From Algisphaera agarilytica (GTDB taxonomy: Bacteria > Planctomycetota > Phycisphaerae > Phycisphaerales > Phycisphaeraceae): a DNA stretch of 64,000 bases. Each line of letters begins with the position of its first letter. Position 1 is the stretch's first letter. Both the position numbers and the translations under genes were made by a program. The notes beneath the pieces are model-generated. The model ran no database searches. It saw only the letters and a program-made list of their open reading frames with translations, and had not been told where the DNA came from. Location: the NCBI RefSeq assembly GCF_014207595.1, contig NZ_JACHGY010000001.1:62001-126000 (forward strand), read 5' to 3'. This document shows positions 1-38,651 of the stretch, in pieces.

Positions 1-1
1 G

Positions 2-1666
2 GGCGATCTCATGCGGCTGGGCGACACCTCGCTCACCCTCCGCGTTGAGAAAGACCTCACGTCCTACGGCGATGAGTGCAAGTTCGGCGGCGGCAAGGTG
101 CTCCGCGAAGGCATGGGCCAGCGGGCCGGCGGCGACCCCGATGAAGCGCTCGACTACGTCATCACCAACGCCCTCATCGTCGACTACACCGGCATCTACA
201 AGGCCGACGTCGGCATCAAGGCGGGGATGATCACGGGCATCGGCAAGGCCGGCAACCCCGACGTCATGCCCGGCGTCACGCCCGGCATGGTCGTGGGCGT
301 CACCACCGAAGCCATCGCCGGCGAGGGCCACATTCTCACCGCCGGCGGCCTGGACACTCACGTCCACTACATCTGCCCGCAGATCGCCGACGAAGCGATC
401 GCCTCCGGCCTCACCACGCTTGTCGGCGGAGGCACCGGCCCGGCGACGGGCACCTGCGCCACCACCTGCACGCCCGGCGCGAACAACATCGCGATGATGA
501 TGCAGGCCGTGGACGACATCCCCATGAACTTCGGCTTCCTGGGCAAAGGCAACACCGCCCTGCCCCAGGGCCTGCCCGAGCAGATCGCCGCCGGCGCGAT
601 CGGGATGAAGCTCCACGAAGACTGGGGCACCACCCCCGCCGCGATCGACTGCTGCCTCGGCGTGGCCGACGACATGGACGTGCAGGTCTGCATCCACACC
701 GACACACTCAACGAGTCGGGTTTCGTCGAAGCCTCGATCGCCGCGTTCAAGGGACGCACGATCCACACCTACCACACCGAAGGCGCCGGCGGCGGCCACG
801 CCCCGGACATCATCAAGGTCTGTGGCGAAGCCAACGTCATCCCGTCCTCGACCAACCCCACCCGGCCGTACACCGTCAACACGATGGATGAGCACCTGGA
901 CATGCTCATGGTCTGCCACCACCTCGACAAGAACCTACCCGAGGATGTCGCCTTCGCCGAGTCGCGCATCCGTGGCGAGACGATCATGGCCGAGGACATC
1001 CTGCACGACCTGGGCGCGTTCTCGATCATGGGCAGCGACAGCCAGGCCATGGGCCGCGTCGGCGAAGTCATCACCCGCACCTGGCAGACCGCCAGCAAGA
1101 TGAAAGACCAGCGTGGCACGCTCGGCGGCGACACCGAAGGCCAGGGCGACAACGAGCGCATCAAACGCTACGTCGCCAAGTACACCATCAACCCCGCGAT
1201 CGCCCACGGCATGTCGCACCTCATCGGCAGCATCGAGGTCGGCAAGCTCGCCGACCTGGTGCTCTGGAAACCCGCGTTCTTCGGGGCCAAGCCCGAGATC
1301 GTGATCAAGGGCGGCCACATCGCCTGGGCCCAGATGGGTGATCCCAACGCCTCGATCCCCACGCCCCAGGCCGTGTACATGCGTCCGCAGTTCGCGGCGT
1401 TGGGTAAGGCGGTCGGCCACACCTCGTTCAGCTTCGTCAGCCAGGCCGCCCAGGACGCCGACGTCCGCGAGGCCTATGGCCTGTCCAAGCGGACCGCCGC
1501 GGTGAAAAACTGCCGCAACATCGGCAAGGCCGACATGAAGCTCAACAGCACCGCTCCGAATATCGAAGTTGACCCGGAGACCTACAAAGTCACCGCCGAC
1601 GGCGAGTTCCTGCAGTGCGAGCCCGCCGAGTCGCTGCCGCTGGCTCAGAAATACTTCCTGTTCTGA
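2..1666 (+). CDS. ureC: Urease subunit alpha, 5' end cut by the window
   Basis: Catalytic subunit of the cytoplasmic Ni-dependent urease (urea + H2O to CO2 and two NH3). The reading frame is open to the window edge and the residues before the first Met (GDL) align with the conserved GD.VRLGDT start of UreC, so the true start lies a few dozen bases upstream. Visible active-site elements: the metal-binding DTHVHYI, the carbamylated-lysine block GMKLHEDWG, the histidines of [11 protein letters not shown] and [17 protein letters not shown]-type segments, the flap Cys-His in [22 protein letters not shown] and the Asp of [10 protein letters not shown]. The C-terminus ends in the usual KYFLF. UreA/UreB and the accessory UreDEFG genes are not in the window; they probably precede it. 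No linked terminator is obvious. Identification is near certain; the functional link to the guanidine cluster 1.5 kb downstream is inference. Confidence 0.97.
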
Positions 1667-1829
1667 GCCCAACAGAGTCCGTTGATCAAGCTTTGGACGC
1701 CGGCTAAGGCCTGCCTGCTTTTTGTGCGACCGGGCGATGGTTTCATGGCTTTGCGCGGTTCTTAGGCGAAATCCCACCCTGAATCGGCCCAGAACCCACT
1801 GGCCTGGTTTTTGTTGGATGTAGGGACTC

Positions 1830-2426
1830 ATGAGTCCCCGATTCTCCATGTTCAAAATGCTCGGGCTTCCGGTCGCCGTGTGCGTCGTGGTTTCGATGGT
1901 CGGCTGCGGGATGACCCCGGCGGCCTCGAACACCACGGCGGTTCGGCAGCTCGTCAGGGACCACGGTGGCTGGTCGCATCAGCCGGCCCACCAAGCGCAA
2001 GCCGAAGCACTGCTGGCGAGTTTGGCGCCGTGTCTCGGAGAATCAACCGACTTCACCCCACGCATCCGGGTGATCGCTACCTCGGCCCCCGTGGCCTACG
2101 CGGTGGCACCGTGTGATGTGCTGGTCTCGGAAGGTTTGCTGGACTGGGCCACGCCCGATCAGGTCCGCGCCGCGGTCGCCCACGAACTGGGGCACCTCAT
2201 CGAAGCGGAAGACGGCGTGGTGTCGGCGTTGCTCGGGCAGCCCGGCATGGAATGCCCCGAGGCCCGAGCCGACCACCTGGGCGTCGGGTTGTTGGACGCC
2301 GCGGGCTTCGACAGCTCGGCCATGGCCACGCTCCTCAGCGATCTGGCCAACCACCCCACAACCCGCCAGGCCGTGCAACTCCACCTCGAACATCGCCACG
2401 GCCTTCTCACGCAACACACGCACTAA
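1830..2426 (+). CDS. Small M48-like zinc metallopeptidase lipoprotein
   Basis: Protein of 198 aa with a signal peptide (hydrophobic LGLPVAVCVVVSMVG) followed by a lipobox-like SMVGC, so probably a lipoprotein. A short zinc peptidase core is visible: AVAHELGHLIEAEDG supplies HExxH, and EARADHLGVGLLDAAGFD further on matches the ExxAD helix that gives the third zinc ligand in M48-type enzymes. The protein is much shorter than FtsH-linked HtpX or BepA, so it is a minimal domain without TPRs. An alternative start is the Met six codons later. It lies alone between ureC and a convergent small gene. Substrate unknown. Confidence 0.7.
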   Translation: MSPRFSMFKMLGLPVAVCVVVSMVGCGMTPAASNTTAVRQLVRDHGGWSHQPAHQAQAEALLASLAPCLGESTDFTPRIRVIATSAPVAYAVAPCDVLVSEGLLDWATPDQVRAAVAHELGHLIEAEDGVVSALLGQPGMECPEARADHLGVGLLDAAGFDSSAMATLLSDLANHPTTRQAVQLHLEHRHGLLTQHTH

Positions 2427-2476
2427 CTTGCCGATGTGATTGCGACGGCCCTTTTTCACCACAAACCAAAAGAGAA

Positions 2477-2502
2477 AGCCGCGGACCTTTTGGCCCACGG
2501 CT
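2477..2502 (-). terminator. Rho-independent terminator of the small secreted-protein gene
   Basis: Read on the minus strand, an 11-bp stem (AGCCGTGGGCC / GGTCCGCGGCT, two G-U pairs) closes an AAAA loop and is followed by TTCTCTTTTT. It stands about 40 bases after the stop codon of the minus-strand gene at 2543-2782 and between the convergent genes. Confidence 0.8.
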
Positions 2503-2542
2503 CTCTCAGGATGGTCTTTGATGACCGGGAGGGATGGTTGGA

Positions 2543-2782
2543 TCAGCGGTTGGTGTTACGGCCGCCGTTGATCACGTTGGCGTAACGGTTGGTCGAGCGG
2601 TCGGCTTTCTTCACGGCCACGGTTTGGCCGGTGAGGGCGTAGACGTTTTGCTGCGACTGGGCGTTCTGGAAGGCGATCCGGGCGTTGTCGGCACCGCGGT
2701 GTTGGGTGCGGGCTTCGGCGGAGGTCGCAGTGGCGAAGGTCAGTGCGGCGGCCAGGGCGGTAAAGGCAAAGAGCTTGTTCAT
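2543..2782 (-). CDS. Small secreted hypothetical protein (79 aa)
   Basis: Not recognised. The first 23 residues form a clear Sec signal peptide (MNKLFAFTALAAALTFATA, cleavage after SAEA). The mature part is about 56 aa, polar, rich in Asn, Gln, Arg and Thr, without cysteines or obvious domain. A good ribosome site (AGGATG, 6 bases before ATG) and a strong terminator downstream support a real, monocistronic, exported product. Envelope or extracellular location is inferred from the signal peptide. Confidence 0.65.
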   Translation of the reverse strand: MNKLFAFTALAAALTFATATSAEARTQHRGADNARIAFQNAQSQQNVYALTGQTVAVKKADRSTNRYANVINGGRNTNR

Positions 2783-3103
2783 GGTTTCATCCTGCTTTCG
2801 TTGGGCGGTTGGGCCCGAGGTTTCTGGGTTGGGTCCCGCAACGTGCGGGGCTCTTCTGAGTCTGGCGATCCCGGCCGGGTGTCGCGTTCGATGTCTGCCC
2901 TATCAACCCCGGATCACCACGTTGTATTTCCGCGACGGAAAAAATCTGACGGCCAGGTACGAACAGCTTGCAAACCCGCGGGGCGAAATACGCCGCCTTT
3001 CGGGCTGCGCAGCGAATAGGCAATCTGACCGAAAATAGATACACCCGCGCGTTTATTATGCGGGAGACCGCGTCTATCGGCTCAAAAACGGCCTTCGGGC
3101 AGC
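2783..3103. other. Intergenic region upstream of the transporter operon
   Basis: About 320 bases without a credible gene between the divergent small secreted-protein gene and the transporter. It must hold the promoter of the minus-strand gene and could hold enhancer sites for a sigma-54 activator. I found no guanidine-I, -II or -III riboswitch pattern and no convincing NtrC palindrome (TGCACC-N5-GGTGCA). Confidence 0.5.
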
Positions 3104-3119
3104 TGGCATCCCTTTTGCC
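3104..3119 (+). promoter_or_regulatory. Sigma-54 (-24/-12) promoter of the guanidine/urea-type transporter operon
   Basis: TGGCATCCCTTTTGCC: the GG and GC doublets are separated by exactly ten bases and both boxes match the TGGCAC-N5-TTGC consensus except one base. The predicted transcript starts near 3130, some 50 bases before the chosen ATG of the binding-protein gene. Sigma-54 control fits a nitrogen-scavenging operon. Confidence 0.8.
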
Positions 3120-3178
3120 AAAGAGAGGGTTAGCACTTGTTTCACACCCCGCCCGGAAACCCTTTGGAGAGATTCTCG

Positions 3179-4183
3179 ATGACCCGATTCAAATCGCTTA
3201 TCCGCCGCGCTGCCGCTGCCGCCCTCACGGGTGTGTTGGCTGTTGCCCCGTTCACCTCGGCCCAGGCCGACCCGCTGAAAATCGGCTACTCCGACTGGCC
3301 CGGCTGGGTCGCGTGGGAGATCGCCATCCAGAAAGGCTGGTTCGATGAGGCTGGCGTCGAAGTCGAGTTCGCGTGGTTCGACTACGTCGCCTCGATGGAC
3401 GCCTACGCCGCCGGCCAACTCGACGCCGTGTGCATGACCAACGGCGACGCCCTGGTCACCGGCACCGCCAAGCCCTCGGTCGCCATCATCATCAACGACT
3501 ACTCCAACGGCAACGACATGCTCGTCGCCACCCCCGACATCAAGTCCGTCAAGGACCTCGAAGGCAAGAAGATCGGTGCCGAGCTCGGCTTCGTCGCCCA
3601 CCTCCTGGCCATCACCGCTCTGGAAGAGAACGGTATCGCGGTCGACAGCGTCGAATGGGTCAACACCCCCACCGACAAGACCCCGGCCATGCTCTCCTCG
3701 GGCAACGTCTCGGCCATCGCGGCCTGGCAGCCCAACTCCGGCGAAGCCCTGAAGGCCGTCCCCGGTTCGACCCCGATCTTCACCTCGGCCGACGCCCCGG
3801 GCATCATCTACGACGTCCTGGCGGTCAGCCCCGAAAGCCTCGCCGAGAACCGCGCCGAGTGGGCCAAGGTCGTGGCCGTGTGGTACCGCGTCGTGGACTA
3901 CCTCAAGGACGAAGACAACTGGGACGACGCGCTGGCCATCCTCGCCGCCCGCGTGCAGATCAGCCCCGCCGAATACGAGCCGTTCTTCCAAGGCACCTAC
4001 ATCCTCTCGCTTGAGGAAGCCCTGAAGGTCTGGGAAGAAGGCGACGGCCTGAGCTCCATCTACGGCTCGACCGACTACTCCAACAAGTTCAACGTGGAGT
4101 ACGAAGCCTACGACTCGCCCCTGGAATACAAGACCTACCTCGACCCCAGCCTGACGCTGGAATACGCCAAGTCGGTCAAGTAA
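3179..4183 (+). CDS. ABC transporter substrate-binding protein, NitT/TauT type (guanidine/urea-carboxylase-associated class)
   Basis: Periplasmic binding protein of 334 aa. The ATG at 3179 was chosen because it follows GGAGAG by 7 bases and begins a normal signal peptide ([20 protein letters not shown], cleavage after SAQA); the frame is open to an earlier ATG at 3137, but that would lie almost on the predicted sigma-54 start point. The mature protein opens with [20 protein letters not shown], the pattern of NMT1-like binding proteins found beside urea/guanidine carboxylase and guanidine hydrolase genes. The partners are the permease and ATPase immediately downstream. Ligand guanidinium (or urea) is inferred from context, not visible in sequence. 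Confidence 0.85.
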
Positions 4184-4213
4184 TCCCTTTCTCACCCGAA
4201 TACCTCCGCCCAA

Positions 4214-4233
4214 GCCCGGCCTAACCGCCGGGC
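4214..4233 (+). other. Intercistronic hairpin between binding protein and permease
   Basis: GCCCGGC-CTAACC-GCCGGGC forms a 7-bp GC stem with a 6-base loop, 30 bases after the binding-protein stop codon. It has no immediate T-run. Such hairpins commonly protect the 3' end of an abundant binding-protein message or weaken read-through into the membrane genes; that role is inferred. Confidence 0.55.
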
Positions 4234-4283
4234 ATGGGATTTGACGGCCCGATTTTTCCACCACGCCCCGCGACGGTTCATCC

Positions 4284-5672
4284 ATGAGTGAGACTCCCCC
4301 GCCCAAACCACCCCGCGACCCGTGGTTCCGGATCCGCACCAACCTGACCGGACGCCGACGAGCGGTCCTCATGATCCTCTCGTTCGTACTGCCGATCGCG
4401 ATCTGGTCGCTGGCGACCTACCTCCCGGCCTTCCAGTCCGAGATCAAGTTCACGCTGGTCACCGAAAAGATCGGCAACTCGGCCGCGTTCTCCGTGGGCG
4501 ACCGTATCGACAAAGAATATTTCTCGGTGTACCTCGACCAGGTCCGCGACGAAAACAAAGCCATCCTCGAGGCGAGGGAAGCGGGCGACGCCAAAGGTTC
4601 ATCCCGGGCCAACAAGAAACGCCTCCGCCAACTCATGCCGCTCGCCGAGTCCATGGGCGTCATGGACGGCGTCCCCCAAGACGACTTCGCCGCGGTGGAC
4701 GGCAAGCTGTTCAGCCTCTACGGCTCGTTGGCCGAGGGAACCGCGACGGTCTCCAATGACCAGCTCACCGCCGAGAACCTGGAGATCGTGAAAGCCAACT
4801 GGGAACTGCTCAAAGAGTTCGCCCCGTACGACAGCAAGAACTTCATCAAGACGCCGCTGCTGCACCTGTTGCCGCAGGGGGTATCGTCGTCGCCGGTCTT
4901 CCTGCCGCCGCCGCACGAGTGCCTGATCGCGGCTTGGGACGACTTCACCAAGGAACCCGCGAACCAGCAGCCGTGGATGTACGAACGCCTGCTGGGTTCG
5001 CTCAAGGTGGTGTTTGGGGCGTTCCTCTTGGCGTGCTTGATCGGTATCCCGATCGGCCTGCTCTGCGGCACATACGACTTCTTCGCCAAGCTGATCGAGC
5101 CTTTCACCGACTTCTTCCGCTACATGCCCGCCCCGACGTTCGGTCTGCTGCTGCAAGCCATCTTCGGCGTGGCCGGAGCGCCCAAGATCGCGATGGTCTT
5201 CATCGGCACGTTCCCCCACATGATCCTGATGCTCGGCAACACCACCCGCCAGCTCGACCGCGGCCTGCTCGAAGCGGCCCAGACCCTGGGGGCCAAGCCC
5301 CGCGCTTTGTTCACCAAGGTGATCGTGCCCGGCATCATGCCGCGCATGTACAACGATCTGCGGGTGCTGCTCGGTTGGGCGTGGACCTGGCTGGTCATCG
5401 CCGAGCTGATCGGCGAGAAGACCGGGCTCACCGCCTTCATCGATACCCAGGGCGGCAAGTACAACTTCGACCGCGTCTTCCCGGTCATCATCATGATCGG
5501 CATCATCGGCTTCCTCACCGACCAGATCCTGCAGTGGATCGCCCGCGGCCTGTTCCCCTGGGAATACAACACGCAGGGCGGATTTATCTCCAAGATCGTC
5601 GGGCTGCCCGGCCGTCTGCTCTCGAAGATCGGCAAGAAAGAAGAAGCGATCATCCCCGCCGAAACCGCCTAA
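4284..5672 (+). CDS. ABC transporter permease, NitT/TauT type, with large extracytoplasmic insertion
   Basis: Inner-membrane subunit of 462 aa. One TM segment lies at about residues 29-50 (AVLMILSFVLPIAIWSLATY), then about 180 mostly polar residues predicted outside the membrane, then the BPD_transp core from about residue 235 with TM segments such as VVFGAFLLACLIGIPIGLL and VFPVIIMIGIIGFL. The cytoplasmic EAA loop that docks the ATPase is present (EAAQTLGAKPRALFTKVIVPG). Ordinary permeases of this family are about 260 aa, so the N-terminal insertion is large; it may interact with the binding protein. Lies between binding protein and ATPase in one operon. Confidence 0.9.
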   Translation: MSETPPPKPPRDPWFRIRTNLTGRRRAVLMILSFVLPIAIWSLATYLPAFQSEIKFTLVTEKIGNSAAFSVGDRIDKEYFSVYLDQVRDENKAILEAREAGDAKGSSRANKKRLRQLMPLAESMGVMDGVPQDDFAAVDGKLFSLYGSLAEGTATVSNDQLTAENLEIVKANWELLKEFAPYDSKNFIKTPLLHLLPQGVSSSPVFLPPPHECLIAAWDDFTKEPANQQPWMYERLLGSLKVVFGAFLLACLIGIPIGLLCGTYDFFAKLIEPFTDFFRYMPAPTFGLLLQAIFGVAGAPKIAMVFIGTFPHMILMLGNTTRQLDRGLLEAAQTLGAKPRALFTKVIVPGIMPRMYNDLRVLLGWAWTWLVIAELIGEKTGLTAFIDTQGGKYNFDRVFPVIIMIGIIGFLTDQILQWIARGLFPWEYNTQGGFISKIVGLPGRLLSKIGKKEEAIIPAETA

Positions 5673-5699
5673 GCGCACTCGCCACTCGAAAGGTTCAAC

Positions 5700-6605
5700 G
5701 TGTCCACCGAACAACCCATCATGGAAGGCCCCGCGCCGATGCCGCCCGACGTGGCCGAGCGTTTCGAACGCATCAAGCAGCGCCCGGTGGTCTTCGACGT
5801 ACAACACCTGGGCCGGGTCTTCACCAGCCCGCAGGGCGAAGCGATCCAAGCCATCGGCGACCTGTCGTTCCAGATCCGCCGCCGCGAGTTCATCACCGTC
5901 ATCGGCCCGTCGGGCTGCGGCAAGTCGACGCTGATCCGCATCATCGCGGGCCTCGAAAAAGCCACCTCCGGCCAGATGCTGCTCGACGGACAACCCGTCA
6001 CCGGACCCGGGGCCGACCGCTGCATGGTCTTCCAGTCGTACACACTCTTCCCCTGGCTGTCGGTGAAGAAGAACGTCATGTTCGGCCTCGAACAAGCGGG
6101 CCACAGCCCGACCGGCGCGGCCAACGAAGCGATGCAGTGGATCGAGATGGTCGGCCTCGGAGACTTCGCCGAGCACTACCCACACCAGCTGTCCGGCGGC
6201 ATGAAGCAGCGCGTCGCGATCGCCCGCGCTCTGGCCAACAAGCCGCGTGTGTTGCTGATGGACGAGCCCTTCGGTGCCCTCGACCCGCAGACGCGCTGCA
6301 CGATGCAGAAGTACCTGCTGCAGATCTGGCAGAACGTGGACGTCACCATCATCTTCATCACCCACGATATGGACGAAGCGATCTACCTCGCCGACCGCGT
6401 CATGGTGCTGGGCCGCAACCCCGGCCACCTCAAGACCATGGTCGAGGTACCCCTGCCCCGCCCGCGTCACCCCGATCAACTCGTCGACCCGCTGTTTGTG
6501 CAGACCAAGAAGTACATCGACGACCTGATCCACCCCCCCGGGGAAGAAGAAGACAAACCCCTGCCGATCTATCGGATGACCGAAGTCGGCGACGACGTGT
6601 TCTGA
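5700..6605 (+). CDS. ABC transporter ATP-binding protein, NitT/TauT type
   Basis: Energising subunit of 301 aa for the importer above. Walker [15 protein letters not shown]-loop [12 protein letters not shown], signature LSGGMKQR, Walker [13 protein letters not shown] and the switch His in FITHDMDEA are all intact. About 30 residues precede the nucleotide-binding domain and about 50 follow it. The start is GTG at 5700, preceded by AAAGG 7 bases upstream. It follows the permease gene by 27 bases and completes a binding protein-permease-ATPase operon. Confidence 0.93.
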
Positions 6606-6655
6606 TTTTTTTGGCTGCGTAATTTCTGTACTCCGTCACTTGATCTCGATTTCCC

Positions 6656-7300
6656 ATGGGCCTGAACAACCGCGAAGACGCGGAGAAAACCCGACGCCGG
6701 ATCATCGACGCCGCGCTCATGCTCTTCTCGAAGCGCGGCTACGGCCACACGTCGCTGGAGATGATCGCCAAGGAAGTCGGCATGACCCGCGGCGCGGTGT
6801 ACGGCCACTTCAAGAACAAACTCGCTCTCTACAGCGAACTCATGCAGCTCTCGCAGACCCCGCTGTACGACATCATGGAGCGGGCGTTGTCCAACCCCGC
6901 CCCCCCGCTCACGGCCCTGCGCAGTTTCATGATCGAGTGGTTCGAGCTGCTGGAAAGCAACCCGCAGCACCGCGAGGCCTTCGAGATCCTGCTGAACAAA
7001 ACCGAACTGACCGAAGAGCTCAGCGAATACCTCGAATCGGAGTATTCGCTGACGCAGGCCATGGTGGACGGCATGGGGCGGCTGATCCAGACGGGGGTGG
7101 AACAACAGGCGTTGCCCGCGGACACGGACGTGCGTTTCCAGGCGTTGTCGGCTTACAACCTGCTCATGGGCGCGACGCACACCTGGCTCTTCAACCCCCG
7201 ACTGTTTGCGATCAACACCTACGGCCCCCAGCTGGTGGACCAGTTCTTCTTTGCCCTGAAACGTTCGCCGGAACACAGTGCCGCGGCGAAGATCGCCTGA
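6656..7300 (+). CDS. TetR/AcrR-family transcriptional regulator
   Basis: 214 aa. The N-terminal helix-turn-helix is canonical (RRRIIDAALMLFSKRGYGHTS followed by AKEVGMTRGAVYGHFKNK). The C-terminal ligand domain resembles the AcrR-type (FEILLNKTELTEELSEYL, ALSAYNLLMGATHTWLF). It sits 50 bases after the transporter ATPase and 80 bases before the first ureohydrolase, so it probably reports on the substrate or a product of this pathway. No strong ribosome site precedes the chosen ATG and no clear operator palindrome was found in 7301-7380. Ligand unknown. Confidence 0.88.
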   Translation: MGLNNREDAEKTRRRIIDAALMLFSKRGYGHTSLEMIAKEVGMTRGAVYGHFKNKLALYSELMQLSQTPLYDIMERALSNPAPPLTALRSFMIEWFELLESNPQHREAFEILLNKTELTEELSEYLESEYSLTQAMVDGMGRLIQTGVEQQALPADTDVRFQALSAYNLLMGATHTWLFNPRLFAINTYGPQLVDQFFFALKRSPEHSAAAKIA

Positions 7301-7380
7301 CTTTCTCACCCCCGTTACGATACGGCTCTCGCTAATCAACCCGGCCTACTGGCCGACGCCTCAACCTCGGAGAATCACGG

Positions 7381-8547
7381 ATGCCCGACGAACCCCTGAA
7401 AGAACCGCTCGACCCCAAACAGATGAAGGGCTACCTTGCGGCGCTCAAAGAAGAGACGCTCACCGAAACCGCGACGATGGACAAGATCGCGCAAGACCTC
7501 GAGATGGGCCTGCCCGGTGCCGACTCGATCAGCGACCCGAACATCAGCACGTTCTCCCGCGGCGAGCTGCCCCACTACGCGGGCATCAACACGGTCATGA
7601 AGACCAAGTATCTCGAAGACGTCCGCCAGATCGGCAACTACGACGTCGCCTTCATGGGCATCCCCTTCGACATCGGCACCACCTACCGCTCGGGCACCCG
7701 CTTCGGCCCTCAGGCGATGCGTCGCATCTCGGCGCTGTACACCAGCTACTTCTACGAGCTGGGCGTGGACCTCGTCGAGAAGGTCAAGATCTGCGACGTC
7801 GGCGACGTGTTTACCATCGGCAACATCGAAAAGTCCTTCGACCAGGTCAGCCGGGCCGTCAGCCACATCTACGCGAACGGCTGCTTCCCCATGCTGATGG
7901 GCGGGGACCACTCCCTGGGCTACCCCAACGTCCGCGGCATCGCGCCGCACGTCGACGGCGATATCGGCATCATCCACATCGACCGACACATCGACACCCA
8001 GGAAAAAGACATGGACGAGCGGATGCACACCTGCCCGTGGTTCCATGCGACCAACATCCCCAACGCCCCCGCCAAGAACCTCGTGCAGGTCGGCATCGGC
8101 GGCTGGCAGGTCCCCCGCCCCGGCGTCAAAGTCGCCCGTGAACGCGGCAGCACCATCATCTCGATGGACGACGTGGATGACCACGGCATCGACAAGGTCG
8201 CCGAGATGGCCCTCGAAGCCGCCTGGAAGGGCAACGTCAAACAGGTCTATCTGTCCTTCGACATCGACAGCGTCGACTGCGGCTTCGTCCCCGGCACCGG
8301 CTGGCCCGAGCCCGGCGGCTTCCTACCCCGCGAAGTCCTTAAGCTGCTCAAGCTCGTCGCCAAGGAAGGCATCTGCGCCATGGAATGCGTCGAGGTCGCC
8401 CCGGCCTACGACACCTCAGACATCACCGCGCTCCTTGGCATCCGCGCGATGCTCGACGTGCTCGCCACGCTCGTCGACGAAGGCCACCTGCCCCGCCAGA
8501 AGAAGCACACCTCCGACGCGGGCATCGATGCGTGGAAAGGTACGTAA
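7381..8547 (+). CDS. gdmH: Ureohydrolase of the Ni-dependent guanidine hydrolase type, copy 1
   Basis: Cytoplasmic ureohydrolase-fold enzyme of 388 aa. Metal ligands are in place: His177 in GGDHS, Asp201/His203/Asp205 in DRHID, Asp294/Asp296 in SFDID. Features unlike agmatinase (about 300-320 aa) but like the guanidine hydrolase of Synechocystis are the long N-terminal extension with GLPGADSISDPNI, DRH instead of DAH in the metal loop, the DERMHTCPWFHATN block after it, and VPGTGWPEPGG. Expected reaction: guanidine + H2O to urea + NH3. The HypA/HypB-like chaperones downstream fit a nickel cofactor. Start ATG follows GGAGA by 8 bases. Function rests on recalled family patterns plus context; agmatinase is the main alternative. 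Confidence 0.82.
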   Translation: MPDEPLKEPLDPKQMKGYLAALKEETLTETATMDKIAQDLEMGLPGADSISDPNISTFSRGELPHYAGINTVMKTKYLEDVRQIGNYDVAFMGIPFDIGTTYRSGTRFGPQAMRRISALYTSYFYELGVDLVEKVKICDVGDVFTIGNIEKSFDQVSRAVSHIYANGCFPMLMGGDHSLGYPNVRGIAPHVDGDIGIIHIDRHIDTQEKDMDERMHTCPWFHATNIPNAPAKNLVQVGIGGWQVPRPGVKVARERGSTIISMDDVDDHGIDKVAEMALEAAWKGNVKQVYLSFDIDSVDCGFVPGTGWPEPGGFLPREVLKLLKLVAKEGICAMECVEVAPAYDTSDITALLGIRAMLDVLATLVDEGHLPRQKKHTSDAGIDAWKGT

Positions 8548-8587
8548 AAACGTGCCTTTCCGTTAACCCCGGGTCAATGACCCGGGG
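8534..8587 (+). other. Two consecutive hairpins between the ureohydrolase genes
   Basis: The first (8534-8561) spans the stop codon of copy 1: GGAAAGGTACGT-AAAA-ACGTGCCTTTCC, a 12-bp stem with one G-U pair. The second (8567-8587) is a near-perfect palindrome, CCCCGGGTC-AAT-GACCCGGGG. Neither is followed by a T-run, so they look like mRNA processing or stability elements that could set different levels of the two paralogues. Confidence 0.6.
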
Positions 8588-8605
8588 CCGCCGCGGCCTT
8601 CAACC

Positions 8606-9781
8606 ATGACCGACTCCACCCCCGACTTCCGCCCCCCATCCCAAGGCCTCGACGCCGTCGCCCGTGAGGCTTCCCTGCCCACCGGCAAACGGGAAGCGGC
8701 CGACGCCCGTGCGTTGGAGATGGGATTGCCCGGGGCCGAGTCGATCACCGATCCGAACATTGGCACGTTCTCGCGGGGCCCGCTCCCGCTCTACGCGGGC
8801 ATCCCGACGATGCTGAAACTGCCCTACGTCGAAGACGTTCGGCAAGCACATCAACACGACGTGTCGTTCATGGGCGTGCCCTTCGACATCGGCACCACCT
8901 TCCGCCCCGGCACCCGCTTCGGCCCGCAGGGCATGCGCCGCGCTTCGGTGCAGTACACCAGCTTCTACAGCTTTGAGATGGGCGTGGACCTCTTCGAATC
9001 GCTGAACATGTGCGACCTCGGCGACGTGTTCACCATCGGCAACATCGAAAAGTCCTTCGACCAGATCAGCCGCGCGGTCGGCCACGCCTACACGCAAGGC
9101 ACGTTCCCCGTGATCATGGGCGGCGACCACAGCATCGGCTACCCCTGCGTCCGCGGCCTCGCCCCGCACATCCGTAAACCGGACGGTTCCCCCGGCAAGC
9201 TCGGCATCATCCACATCGACCGCCACCTCGACACGCTCGAGAAGGACATGGACGAGCGGATGCACACCTGCCCGTGGTTCCACGCCACCAATATCCCCAA
9301 CGCCCCGTCGACCAACCTCGTGCAGATGGGCATCGGCGGCTGGCAGACCTCACGCGAGTGGGTCAAGGGCGCACGCGACAAAGGGACATATGTCCTGACC
9401 ATGGACGACATCGAGACCATGGGCATCGAAAAGGCCGCCGAGGTCGCACTCGACATCGCTTGGAAGGACGCGGATGCGGTGTACCTGAGTTTCGACATCG
9501 ACAGCGTCGAAGCGGGCCACGTCCCCGGCACCGGCTGGCCCCAGCCCGGCGGGTTCCAGCCTCGCGAAGTGCTCAAGCTCCTACGCCTCATCGCATCGCG
9601 CGGTTTGGCGGCGATGGAATGCGTCGAGGTCGCCCCGTGCTACGACATCGCCGACGTCACCTCGATCATGGCCGTGCACGCCACCATGGAAGTGCTCGGC
9701 TCCCTCGTCGACCACGGCCACCTACCCGACAAACGTGCTCCCATACTCGACGCCGACCTGAATGCATGGAAAGGAACCTGA
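8606..9781 (+). CDS. gdmH: Ureohydrolase of the Ni-dependent guanidine hydrolase type, copy 2
   Basis: 391 aa, an obvious tandem paralogue of the previous gene. It shares GLPGAESITDPNIGTFSRG, CDLGDVFTIGNIEKSFDQ, the DERMHTCPWFHATNIPNAP block and the C-terminal LNAWKGT. Metal ligands His175, Asp205/His207/Asp209 and Asp297/Asp299 are all kept. It differs near the active site: DSVEAGHVPGTGWPQPGG replaces DSVDCGFVPGTGWPEPGG, and there is a small insertion (KPDGSPGK) before the metal loop. It could form mixed hexamers with copy 1, have a different guanidino substrate, or be a backup. It lies 58 bases after copy 1. No strong ribosome site is visible before the ATG. Confidence 0.8.
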   Translation: MTDSTPDFRPPSQGLDAVAREASLPTGKREAADARALEMGLPGAESITDPNIGTFSRGPLPLYAGIPTMLKLPYVEDVRQAHQHDVSFMGVPFDIGTTFRPGTRFGPQGMRRASVQYTSFYSFEMGVDLFESLNMCDLGDVFTIGNIEKSFDQISRAVGHAYTQGTFPVIMGGDHSIGYPCVRGLAPHIRKPDGSPGKLGIIHIDRHLDTLEKDMDERMHTCPWFHATNIPNAPSTNLVQMGIGGWQTSREWVKGARDKGTYVLTMDDIETMGIEKAAEVALDIAWKDADAVYLSFDIDSVEAGHVPGTGWPQPGGFQPREVLKLLRLIASRGLAAMECVEVAPCYDIADVTSIMAVHATMEVLGSLVDHGHLPDKRAPILDADLNAWKGT

Positions 9782-9866
9782 ACCTCCAACACCCCAGGAA
9801 GCTCAAATCAATCCCCACTGACTTGTCTTCGCGCCCTCCGCGCCTTCGCGGTTCACCCTCACCCCC

Positions 9867-10229
9867 ATGCACGAACTCTCCGTCGCCATCTCGATCGTCC
9901 AGAGCATCACCGACGCCACCGCCGCGGAAGACCACGGCCAGATCGCCGCGGTGAACGTCCGCGTCGGCGCGATGTCCGGTGTCATCCCCGAAGCCCTCCA
10001 GTTCGCCTGGACCCCCGCCACCCGCGACACGCCGCTCCAGGGCAGCGAACTCCGCGTCGAATTCATCCCCGCTGCGATCTATTGCGAAAACTGCTCCGAC
10101 ACCGTCGAATTGCCCGGGCAACGCCTGGTGTGCCCGGTCTGCCAGACCCGTTCGCCGCGCCTCGTGCGCGGCCGAGAACTCGATATCCTGTCCGTTGAAC
10201 TTCAACCCGAGTCCCAACATGCCTCCTGA
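9867..10229 (+). CDS. ghaA: HypA-like nickel chaperone (GhaA type)
   Basis: 120 aa, full length for HypA. The nickel site starts with Met1-His2-Glu3 (MHELSVAISI) and the zinc site uses Cys73, Cys76, Cys89 and Cys92 (two CxxC pairs). In hydrogenase organisms HypA delivers Ni to NiFe enzymes, but no hydrogenase gene lies here; the gene directly follows two guanidine-hydrolase-type genes and overlaps a hypB-like gene. That arrangement matches the dedicated GdmH maturation pair GhaA/GhaB known from cyanobacteria. Cytoplasmic. The role in loading Ni into the ureohydrolases is inferred from context; generic HypA remains possible. Confidence 0.85.
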   Translation: MHELSVAISIVQSITDATAAEDHGQIAAVNVRVGAMSGVIPEALQFAWTPATRDTPLQGSELRVEFIPAAIYCENCSDTVELPGQRLVCPVCQTRSPRLVRGRELDILSVELQPESQHAS

Positions 10230-10926
10230 ATCACCCACGCCTGCTTCCGATTCCGCCGTCGCCAAGCCCCGCATCCTCGAGGTCCGCACCCAGATCCTCA
10301 AGAAGAACGACGAGTTGGCCCGCGACCTGCGCGACCGCTTCCGGGCGGCGGGCTGCTTTGTCGTCAGCCTCGTCTCCAGCCCCGGCACCGGCAAGACCGA
10401 GTTCCTCAAGCAAACCCTTATCCGCCTGCAAGAGCGCGGCGGCCTGAAGATCGCCGCCCTCGTCGGCGACCTGCGCACCGACAACGACGCCGCCCGCCTC
10501 GCCGAGTCGGGCGTTGATGTCCGCCAGATCGAGACCGGCACGATGTGCCACCTCGAGGCCGACATGGTCGAACGCGCGATCGAAGAAGCGTCGTGGGACT
10601 GCGACGACCTCGACCTGCTCTTCGTCGAAAACGTCGGCAACCTCGTCTGCCCTTCCGGTTTCGACCTGGGCGAAGACCTCCGCCTCGTCTTGGTTTCGAC
10701 CACCGAAGGCGAAGACAAGCCGCTGAAGTACCCGACGATCTTCAACACCGCCGACGTCGCGGTGATCACGAAGATGGACCTCGCCGAGGTGCTTGAGTAC
10801 GACGCCGAGAAAATGCAGAACAGCATCCAGGACGTCCGCCCCGGCATGCGTGCCTTCGAAGTCTCGGCCAAGTCCGGCCAAGGCATGGACGAATGGATCC
10901 AGTGGCTGACCGATCAAGCCTCTTGA
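10219..10926 (+). CDS. ghaB: HypB-like nickel-insertion GTPase (GhaB type)
   Basis: 235-aa SIMIBI-class GTPase. Walker A is SSPGTGKTEFLK (GTGKT at residues 56-60); VGDLRTDNDAARL and the IETGTMCHLEADMVERA block carry the HypB metal-site region; FVENVGNLVCPSGFDLGED and KMDLAEV complete the fold and guanine-specificity motif. It lacks the His-rich N-terminal Ni store of many HypBs. The ATG at 10219 overlaps the hypA stop by 11 bases, which fixes the start and implies translational coupling. Its last codons overlap the convergent gene by 13 bases. Partner of the preceding HypA in Ni delivery, most plausibly to the two ureohydrolases. Confidence 0.88.
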   Translation: MPPESPTPASDSAVAKPRILEVRTQILKKNDELARDLRDRFRAAGCFVVSLVSSPGTGKTEFLKQTLIRLQERGGLKIAALVGDLRTDNDAARLAESGVDVRQIETGTMCHLEADMVERAIEEASWDCDDLDLLFVENVGNLVCPSGFDLGEDLRLVLVSTTEGEDKPLKYPTIFNTADVAVITKMDLAEVLEYDAEKMQNSIQDVRPGMRAFEVSAKSGQGMDEWIQWLTDQAS

Positions 10927-12545
10927 GTTAGCCGTTCCCGCACCGCGGCCCGCACATCCTCGTCCAGATCGAACTTCAATAGCTCCAGGCTTGATGGCGG
11001 CAGTGTCGGATTGGCCACCGCCGCCAACCGGATGGCGGGGATAGCGTCGTGTAGAAGCTCACCAAGTGCCTCGGCCGAGACATCGGCGCGGTTGACCAAA
11101 GCCCAACGGACATCGTGCGCCACGTCGTGCACCATCGCATCCGCGACCCCGGCGGGTGTTGCAGAGTTCTTGGCCACCGCGACGCGGACCGCCATGTCAT
11201 CGTCGCGTGACAGTTTTTCGAGTTGGGTTGTATTGGCTGAGCGTTGTCGGGCCGCGAGGCGTCGTGCCCAAGGGCCAAGCTTGGCGAGTCGGTCGATTGA
11301 CGCAACCGGTAGCGATCGTGCTCCCCGCTCAAAGCCTTGGAGGTCGTCGCTGCTGCCCGCCGCCACGAGCAGATCGATCAGGTCACGCGGGCAGGCGGGG
11401 TGACGCAGCGCCACATCACGCAGCATCGGATCACCCGATGTCACCAACACAGCGAGAATGCGGCTGGGCGTCGCGGGGTGCCGGGCGGCCAGGCGTTGGC
11501 CCCAACCCCCGGCCGCCGCGAGTTCTTCTAGCGAAGCTTCATCCAACGCGGGATCTGGCTCGATGAATTGCTGCAGGTCGGGCGTGGTCCCGGCCGCCGT
11601 GAGCCAATCCCGGTCGGCTTGGGTCAACGCGGGGTGTGCCGAGACAAATTCGCGCACCGCCGAGGAACCGTCGAGCGCGAGTTGGCGCAGCAACGACGCG
11701 GGCGTGCCCGGGTTGCGGGCGATCTCCACGCGGATGCGGATGTCGGGTTCTTCCGCGAGTTGTTCCAAAGTCGCTGCGGGGGTTTGGGGGTGTCCTGCGA
11801 CGCGCTGCCGGGTCTCGAATACGTCCAGTCCCGCAAGCTCTTCGAGCAACACACCTGCTGCTGCGGGGTTCTCCGCCACGGCTGCCCGAACGCGCCAGTC
11901 GGAATCTTGGGCCAGCTCCGCCAAAGTGTCGGGATCGATGCGTGGATGACGTGCCGCAAGTTGCTTGCTGTAGCTACCCGCCGCGATCAGCCCTTCCGTA
12001 TCGATTTCTCCCGCGGGCACGTCTTCTGCCCAACCCGATAGATCCGGTCGGCTGCCCGCGGCTTCCAACATCGCCACGGTCTCGCGGGGCACGTTCGGAT
12101 GCGCCGCGGCCGCTTGTCGGACCTGCGCATCCACGTCGCCGCAGAGCGTGCGCAACACCTCGGCCGGACACGCCGGGTGCGTGGCCACCGTACGCCGCAG
12201 TGCATTACCCCCCGACTCGGCCAAGTTTCGCAGCGTCGCCGGACCGGTGTCGGCGTGCTGCGCCGCCAGCAGACGCCCCCACTCGCCAAGGCCAACCAGC
12301 TCGGCAATCTCCTGGGCCGACAACGCATCCGCGCCGCCGCCAAACCCCATCAGGTCCGATGTTGCCCCCGCCCGCCCAAGCAGTTGCAACGTCGCGCTCG
12401 GCGTCGAAGGATTCTTCGCCGCAGCGCGACGGACGTGCAAGTTCCCGTCCGCCGCCAGCATGGCCAACACCCCCGGCGGGGTGTCGGGCGACGAAGCCAA
12501 GGCCTGGCGCTGCGGCGCGGATTCCATCTCAGACTCAGACAACAT
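10914..12545 (-). CDS. Leucine-rich-repeat-variant / HEAT-like repeat protein
   Basis: 543 aa built almost entirely from tandem helical repeats of roughly 24-28 residues with the pattern VAxNPxTPxxxLxxLAxDxDxxVRxxVAxHP (examples: AKNPSTPSATLQLLG, VAGHPQTPAATLEQLAEE, IARNPGTPASLLRQLALD). This is the LRV-type alpha solenoid, which usually acts as a protein-binding scaffold. There is no signal peptide or TM segment, so it is probably cytoplasmic. It converges on the hypB-like gene with a 13-base overlap and is not obviously part of the guanidine pathway. No partner can be named. Confidence 0.75.
   Translation of the reverse strand: MLSESEMESAPQRQALASSPDTPPGVLAMLAADGNLHVRRAAAKNPSTPSATLQLLGRAGATSDLMGFGGGADALSAQEIAELVGLGEWGRLLAAQHADTGPATLRNLAESGGNALRRTVATHPACPAEVLRTLCGDVDAQVRQAAAAHPNVPRETVAMLEAAGSRPDLSGWAEDVPAGEIDTEGLIAAGSYSKQLAARHPRIDPDTLAELAQDSDWRVRAAVAENPAAAGVLLEELAGLDVFETRQRVAGHPQTPAATLEQLAEEPDIRIRVEIARNPGTPASLLRQLALDGSSAVREFVSAHPALTQADRDWLTAAGTTPDLQQFIEPDPALDEASLEELAAAGGWGQRLAARHPATPSRILAVLVTSGDPMLRDVALRHPACPRDLIDLLVAAGSSDDLQGFERGARSLPVASIDRLAKLGPWARRLAARQRSANTTQLEKLSRDDDMAVRVAVAKNSATPAGVADAMVHDVAHDVRWALVNRADVSAEALGELLHDAIPAIRLAAVANPTLPPSSLELLKFDLDEDVRAAVRERLTQEA

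Positions 12546-38553: not shown

Positions 38554-38651
<98 letters not shown>

Follow-up and report, generated by a model that had tools for sequence, protein, structure and literature searches.

In the papers cited here, tests of the nickel guanidinase route concern a cyanobacterium and a comammox nitrifier. The operon of Synechocystis sp. PCC 6803 (sll1077, sll1080-1082 and hypA/hypB) is described as combining a guanidinase with two nickel-loading proteins and an SsuA-type ABC importer (PMC8390497, PMC12186494), and the guanidinase of Nitrospira inopinata as a homohexamer resembling the Synechocystis enzyme, GdmH (PMC11410670). Tandem arginase-family genes beside hypA/hypB are reported for the metformin and dimethylguanidine hydrolases (MefH, DmgH and MetCaCb), which are likewise nickel-dependent (PMC11399263, PMC11271267). 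The same parts as in the Synechocystis operon were found in a stretch of 64,000 nucleotides from Algisphaera agarilytica, hereafter the window (G000:C1:62001-126000, from a genome of 4.17 Mb that is 99.75% complete). Importer, regulator, a pair of ureohydrolases (Gdm1 and Gdm2), hypA and hypB lie there on the plus strand at window positions 3179-10926, and the locus is very probably one of guanidine assimilation: an importer, a nickel enzyme of the GdmH family (Gdm1) loaded by HypA/HypB-like proteins, an adjoining urease, control by a TetR-family regulator, and Gdm2 as a second hydrolase. The type of pathway is already known from Synechocystis; what differs is the tandem pair with its diverged second copy, and the regulator.

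In the proposed mechanism, guanidine would be taken up by the ABC importer and hydrolysed to urea and ammonia by Gdm1, into which the HypA/HypB-like chaperones would load nickel, with the urease encoded just upstream releasing two more ammonia from the urea. Sensing of the substrate is probably the task of a TetR-type repressor within the operon instead of a riboswitch. Gdm2 would have arisen by tandem duplication of a Phycisphaeraceae gdm gene and would act as a second hydrolase with a full active site, most likely as its own hexamer, with guanidine as its substrate in other conditions or else a small guanidino compound of related kind. The gene content and order, the clade, the intact active-site residues, the lack of a hydrogenase and of a riboswitch at the locus, and the co-occurrence of hypA with gdm were computed. 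From these we infer the substrate, the nickel, the transport specificity, the regulation and the role of Gdm2, which, taken together, would extend the route to planctomycetes. The original prediction had listed the same genes (importer, TetR regulator, two ureohydrolases and HypA/HypB-like genes), all of which are present on the plus strand, and had placed them at 3104-10926, of which the end is accurate and the start should read 3179. The DRHxD and DERMHTCPWFHATN blocks that it quoted occur in Gdm1 and Gdm2 alike, and its description of the genome as planctomycete-like agrees with the named genomes that gave the best protein matches, a Phycisphaera metagenome-assembled genome (locus L003, genome G398) and an Algisphaera one (L004, G399), of the same genus as the window genome.

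Placement of the two ureohydrolases

Compared with solved structures by phmmer, Gdm1 matched the N. inopinata guanidinase (9fek, 7.2e-152) and Synechocystis GdmH (7esr/7oi1, 1.3e-148) and next a guanidinobutyrase (3nio, 7.8e-45), and Gdm2 gave the same order with values of 3.6e-139, 3.5e-134 and 1e-41. Both proteins fell within the guanidinase clade in a careful tree of 43 rows, in which the split from the outgroups was supported at 93/99 and the Phycisphaeraceae Gdm1 and Gdm2 proteins formed one group (95/89), and in a quick tree of 94 rows (support 96), with the caveat that long outgroup branches meet in both trees. The outgroups of the careful tree were the agmatinase of E. coli (7lol), a hypothetical agmatinase (4dz4), a guanidinobutyrase, a guanidinopropionase and a proclavaminate amidinohydrolase.

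All ten published residues, i.e. the six metal ligands together with T97, H214, W305 and E336 in Synechocystis numbering (Palatinszky et al., PMC11410670), are kept in Gdm1 and Gdm2 and also in both L003 proteins. Across 86 family members, compared without the outgroups and the 31%-type second gene of locus L034, the ten were invariant except for Trp305, which was W in 83. Guanidine specificity in Synechocystis is described as depending on Thr97 and Trp305, and the same source used this Thr and Trp to infer a guanidinase (PMC11410670); Gdm1 and Gdm2 both carry these two residues. Separately, the gdm proteins of L014, L016 and L067 lie in the guanidinase clade with Thr or Ser in place of Trp305, which makes them, from their sequences, candidates for other substrates.

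AlphaFold models had a mean predicted local distance difference test score (pLDDT) of 86.1 for Gdm2 and 81.3 for Gdm1. Structure comparison covered the Gdm2 model, for which Foldseek returned guanidinases first (9fek, 6.7e-43) and metformin hydrolases next, the latter chains at 26-29% identity among the matches listed. The loop directly after Thr97 was poorly modelled, with pLDDT below 50 at positions 98-101 of Gdm2.

An alternative that places the two enzymes in polyamine or arginine metabolism, as agmatinases or as hydrolases of guanidino acids, draws on the automatic agmatinase models, which match both proteins, albeit under their cut-offs (TIGR01230 of NCBIfam: 160.1 bits for Gdm1 and 145.5 for Gdm2, against 174.3). 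Tree, residues and scores all contradict it; the agmatinase reading was rejected on these grounds, and the alternative as a whole is scarcely credible. The original prediction had read both enzymes as GdmH-type and had named a tree with agmatinases, with both proteins inside that group, as an outcome that would overturn this. The position of both in the guanidinase clade and the Thr and Trp residues support its reading. No further arginase-family genes were found in the window genome beyond Gdm1 and Gdm2.

Nickel chaperones, urease and gene neighbourhood

Matches to gdm at E<=1e-60 were found in 4 of 51 Phycisphaeraceae genomes, and in 2/397 genomes of a class sample and 2/392 of a phylum sample, the two matches in each sample being the window genome itself and one relative, G149. 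There were no matches to [NiFe]-hydrogenase (PF00374) in the whole window genome, such that the absence of hydrogenase in the original prediction extends beyond the window to the genome, nor in any of the four gdm genomes. Each of these four has one HypA match, which is the gene behind gdm, and HypA exceeded its cut-off in 23 of the 51 Phycisphaeraceae genomes, exactly the 19 with a PF00374 match and the four with gdm. At E<=0.001 the number rose to 26, the extra three (G395, G425 and G240) being short sub-cut-off matches in genomes without hydrogenase or gdm and standing outside the 23. If HypA were placed at random, the chance of it falling on exactly those four of the 32 hydrogenase-free genomes would be 2.8e-5, a value that overstates independence, as three of the four gdm genomes are of one genus. 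Because the genomes with hypA over its cut-off are precisely those with a hydrogenase or gdm, the HypA/HypB-like proteins appear to serve the guanidinase, and the role originally suggested for them fits their position beside gdm, with the sole HypA of a genome lacking hydrogenase. This split of 51 genomes isolates the question of HypA/HypB-like function in the absence of hydrogenase.

In a scan of 83 loci, HypA and HypB stood beside gdm in four (L003, L004, L090 and the Chloroflexaceae locus L032), with a HypA model that was built from four sequences and could miss distant HypA, and the five other HypB-like matches were UreG. The placement of chaperones beside gdm, as described for Synechocystis, is a minority arrangement in the scanned sample. 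In the window, hypB overlaps hypA by 11 bases.

The urea-uptake and urease genes begin ahead of the window with urtA, a fused urtBC, urtD, urtE, ureD, a fused ureAB and the start of ureC, and ureF and ureG lie on the opposite strand nearby. The original prediction had placed ureC upstream of the cluster, which is correct with the qualification that the gene is cut by the window start and that about 1.5 kb, holding an M48-peptidase-like gene (1830-2426), separates it from the importer. The urease alpha subunit had one match in each of the four gdm genomes; in G149 it lies about 52 kb from gdm, and in G398 and G399 the two genes are on different contigs. Urease adjacency is thus not conserved among the four, though Rubrobacter and certain other actinobacteria likewise have urease within some kilobases of gdm. 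The predicted route from guanidine to urea to ammonia is supported by the importer, hypA and urease in a genome without hydrogenase, and its nickel dependence would follow from the gene content, whereas the urease adjacency on which it drew is the part that does not hold across the relatives.

HypA and HypB help urease in Helicobacter, and all four gdm genomes have urease, from which it could be argued that the two proteins serve urease instead of, or besides, the guanidinase. However, gdm is immediately followed by hypA and hypB in all four genomes, including those in which urease is distant, and the window genome has its own ureD, ureF and ureG; this assignment is considered quite improbable. 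The guanidine carboxylase route was also tried and rejected, as TIGR02712 had no match over its cut-off of 1303.85 bits in any of the four gdm genomes, the best scores (425-515 bits) covering the first ~440 positions, as a biotin carboxylase would.

Two further observations concern the urease region. UrtB and UrtC, both permeases of the urea importer, are fused in one open reading frame (ORF) of 1020 aa (L093 5306-8368) with about 300 extra residues in front. RF02514 (5_ureB_sRNA) matched at 108 bits on the minus strand of window positions 101-392, antisense inside ureC, as the sole Rfam match in 1-11500, and is probably conserved coding sequence rather than an RNA.

Table 1. Features of the locus, in window coordinates, with the evidence for each assignment
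Feature	Position	Strand	Evidence and remarks
ureC, urease alpha subunit	1..1666	+	start codon precedes the window, 572 aa in full; TIGR01792 3e-279; full ORF L093 11949-13667
ABC importer substrate-binding protein (SBP), NMT1/SsuA type	3179..4183	+	NMT1_2 4.8e-16; signal-peptide-like N-terminus
ABC importer permease, 462 aa	4284..5672	+	PF00528 2.8e-24 at 254-423; transport domain is the C-terminal half
ABC importer ATPase, SaoA/NtrCD type	5700..6605	+	NF040729 2e-73 and TIGR01184 9.3e-73, both under cut-off; PF00005 3.8e-34
TetR/AcrR-family regulator	6656..7300	+	PF00440, PF08361
Gdm1, GdmH-type guanidine hydrolase	7381..8547	+	phmmer, trees, residues
Gdm2, diverged GdmH-type paralogue, catalytic residues intact	8606..9781	+	phmmer, trees, residues, Foldseek
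hypA-like nickel metallochaperone (GhaA-like)	9867..10229	+	PF01155 2.7e-29, above cut-off; TIGR00100 84.3 bits (cut-off 88.1)
hypB-like nickel GTPase (GhaB-like)	10219..10926	+	TIGR00073 259.6 bits (cut-off 121.2); ATG at 10219

Probable tandem duplication and divergence of Gdm2

The pair of Gdm1 and Gdm2 was present in two of the four gdm genomes, namely the window genome and G398, while L004 (G399) and G149 carry a single gdm followed directly by hypA and hypB, with 87% and 86% identity to Gdm1, respectively. G149, at 99% completeness, holds a single arginase-family gene; G399 is 78% complete, with one gdm at the locus and none found elsewhere, such that a further copy is possible. In the tree of Gdm1 proteins L003 and L004 group as sisters (100/100), so Gdm2 was probably lost in L004, or passed between lineages. 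Two GdmH-type genes side by side were found in one of 80 further loci (L003), in a scan of the best 80 of 236 relatives, several of which are on short contigs.

Gdm1 and Gdm2 of the window share 64% identity. The motif WKG near the C-terminus occurred in 6 of 94 rows, these being the six Phycisphaeraceae proteins of both types, a count to which the reference rows taken from PDB alignments contributed without their ends; a local tandem duplication is favoured because the motif is confined to these six. Gdm2 appears from these alignments and trees to be a fast-evolved sister of Gdm1, with a stem of 0.66 in the careful tree compared with 0.28 for the clade of four Gdm1 proteins (100/99). Conservation across the 84 other members reaches 95% or more in 145 columns, of which 14 were changed in the Gdm2 proteins of the window and of L003 alike and 6 in the matching pair of Gdm1 proteins. 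The 14 include E307 and R353 (Synechocystis numbering), which are invariant in all 84 others. These changes had been expected to be enriched near the ten active-site residues, but a test along the sequence (P 0.51-0.67) found no such enrichment.

Between the window and L003, Gdm2 is 82-83% identical, and the rough ratio of nonsynonymous to synonymous substitution rates (dN/dS) was 0.17 for Gdm1 and 0.14 for Gdm2, compared with 0.55 between the paralogues. Since Gdm2 is kept in two genomes at that identity and that ratio, it seems to be under constraint of its own. The synonymous distances were high and out of step with the order of the tree, at 0.56 for Gdm1-Gdm2 within the window and 1.03 for Gdm2-Gdm2 across genomes; gene conversion, codon bias or saturation could be the cause, and the tree puts the duplication first.

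These observations bear on three explanations of the pair that differ in what Gdm2 does. In the first, Gdm1 and Gdm2 are subunits of an obligate heterohexamer, like the alpha and beta chains of MefH, and neither works alone, which would suit both the tandem position of the two arginase-family genes next to hypA/hypB, shared with metformin hydrolase, and the constraint apparent on both copies. However, since two relatives carry Gdm1 alone, an obligate two-subunit enzyme is argued against; moreover, MefH beta has lost metal ligands whereas Gdm2 retains all six, and the N. inopinata guanidinase is described as a homohexamer, and this explanation is accordingly held to be unlikely. In the second, Gdm2 has switched substrate: as a nickel ureohydrolase it would act on a different small guanidino compound arriving through the same importer, with Gdm1 handling guanidine. 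The long stem, the excess of changed columns including E307 and R353, and the existence of relatives with other substrates, i.e. the metformin and dimethylguanidine hydrolases (PMC11399263), point in this direction; Thr97 and Trp305 are nevertheless unchanged and the altered sites lie no closer in sequence to the active-site residues, leaving a substrate switch possible but rather doubtful. In the third, Gdm2 is a plain second guanidinase, kept for dosage or for a different affinity, and its changes are drift after duplication. This accommodates the retention of all ten residues and the absence of Gdm2 beside gdm in L004 and from G149, where it is evidently dispensable, and is less easily reconciled with the constraint specific to Gdm2; it is possible, if somewhat doubtful.

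Tentatively, Gdm2 could also be proposed as a new branch of nickel ureohydrolases, in which the guanidinase active site is kept and other near-invariant residues are changed, with either another guanidino substrate or a non-obligate mixed hexamer with Gdm1 in which both chains are catalytic; it is offered with less than even confidence. The original description of both ureohydrolases as guanidine hydrolases is supported at the level of the family, with the reservation that the diverged Gdm2 may not hydrolyse guanidine.

Importer, regulation and comparison with described systems

Several points weigh against guanidine assimilation as the function of the locus, in addition to the altered near-invariant columns of Gdm2. 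For the substrate-binding protein no named family came near its cut-off, and family assignment does not fix the ligand, the best NCBIfam match being TIGR03427, 'putative urea ABC transporter substrate-binding protein', at 141.4 bits against a cut-off of 333.9. A riboswitch is the usual sign of guanidine genes, and no Rfam guanidine family matched at E<=1 in window positions 1-11500, nor was guanidine-I (RF00442) found in any of the 51 Phycisphaeraceae genomes under stricter filters that did recover the Bacillus subtilis control. Lastly, a Km of 13.6 mM is given for the N. inopinata guanidinase, whose true substrate could, in its authors' discussion, be another compound; in their account no urea was released from five of the alternatives that they tried, and agmatine gave a small but significant release (PMC11410670).

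As regards the importer, the 'uca' in the name of TIGR03427 points to urea carboxylase clusters. Most such carboxylases are predicted to use guanidine (PMC12186494). The permease has some 230-250 residues ahead of its transport domain and shares 57-70% identity with those of L004 and L090 over nearly its whole length. A TetR gene lies between the ATPase gene and gdm in all four gdm genomes, the proteins of L003, L004 and L090 having 37-40% identity to the window's; it is the predicted regulator of the operon. A search for its operator as perfect 7-base inverted repeats with gaps of up to 10 gave none in three intergenic stretches.

Elsewhere in the window, at 38000-64000, G+C is 0.45-0.58 near a tRNA-Gly (38554-38626), down from about 0.65, and 8 of 9 scanned ORFs had Pfam matches, including polysaccharide export, sugar transferases, O-antigen ligase and GH99. 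This is probably an exopolysaccharide region, perhaps acquired, although no search for an integrase was made.

No account of the locus was found among the papers listed on guanidinases, planctomycetes and Algisphaera/Phycisphaeraceae, as judged from titles and the beginnings of abstracts and with subscription papers mostly outside the scope. Over the aligned part, Synechocystis GdmH (7OI1/7ESR) is 59.3% identical to Gdm1 and 55.0% to Gdm2. The Synechocystis operon is described with a guanidine-I riboswitch (PMC12186494), whereas the locus here has a TetR gene and no riboswitch was found at it, and the window differs further in its two gdm genes and in the adjoining urease and urea importer. 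The N. inopinata guanidinase (9FEK) lies in the same clade with the same ten residues, at 62.5% and 59.7% identity to Gdm1 and Gdm2 over the aligned part, and is associated with an APC permease and a riboswitch and, by its authors' account, with no nickel chaperones in the genome (PMC11410670). The only one of the 83 scanned loci outside Phycisphaeraceae with gdm, hypA, hypB and an ABC importer was Chloroflexaceae L032, which has one gdm gene on a 5.4 kb contig and no match to the window's TetR.

The metformin and dimethylguanidine hydrolases also have a tandem pair, yet they are obligate alpha/beta complexes with a degenerate beta chain (PMC11399263), that of MefH having lost five of the six metal ligands in the present alignment and four by the authors' count (PMC11399263), whereas both members of the window pair keep all ligands and single-copy relatives exist. 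A survey of arginase pairs counted 56, one of them from Planctomycetota, and left the function, metal and cooperation of pairs with intact ligands in both members as an open question (PMC11271267, section 11). The window pair fits the description given there of such intact-ligand pairs and may be included in that list. If the proposed branch is real, Gdm2 would be a working example of these pairs. The tandem pair, together with single-gene relatives at 86-87% identity, offers a good system in which to ask whether pairs with two intact sites cooperate or divide substrates between them (PMC11271267).

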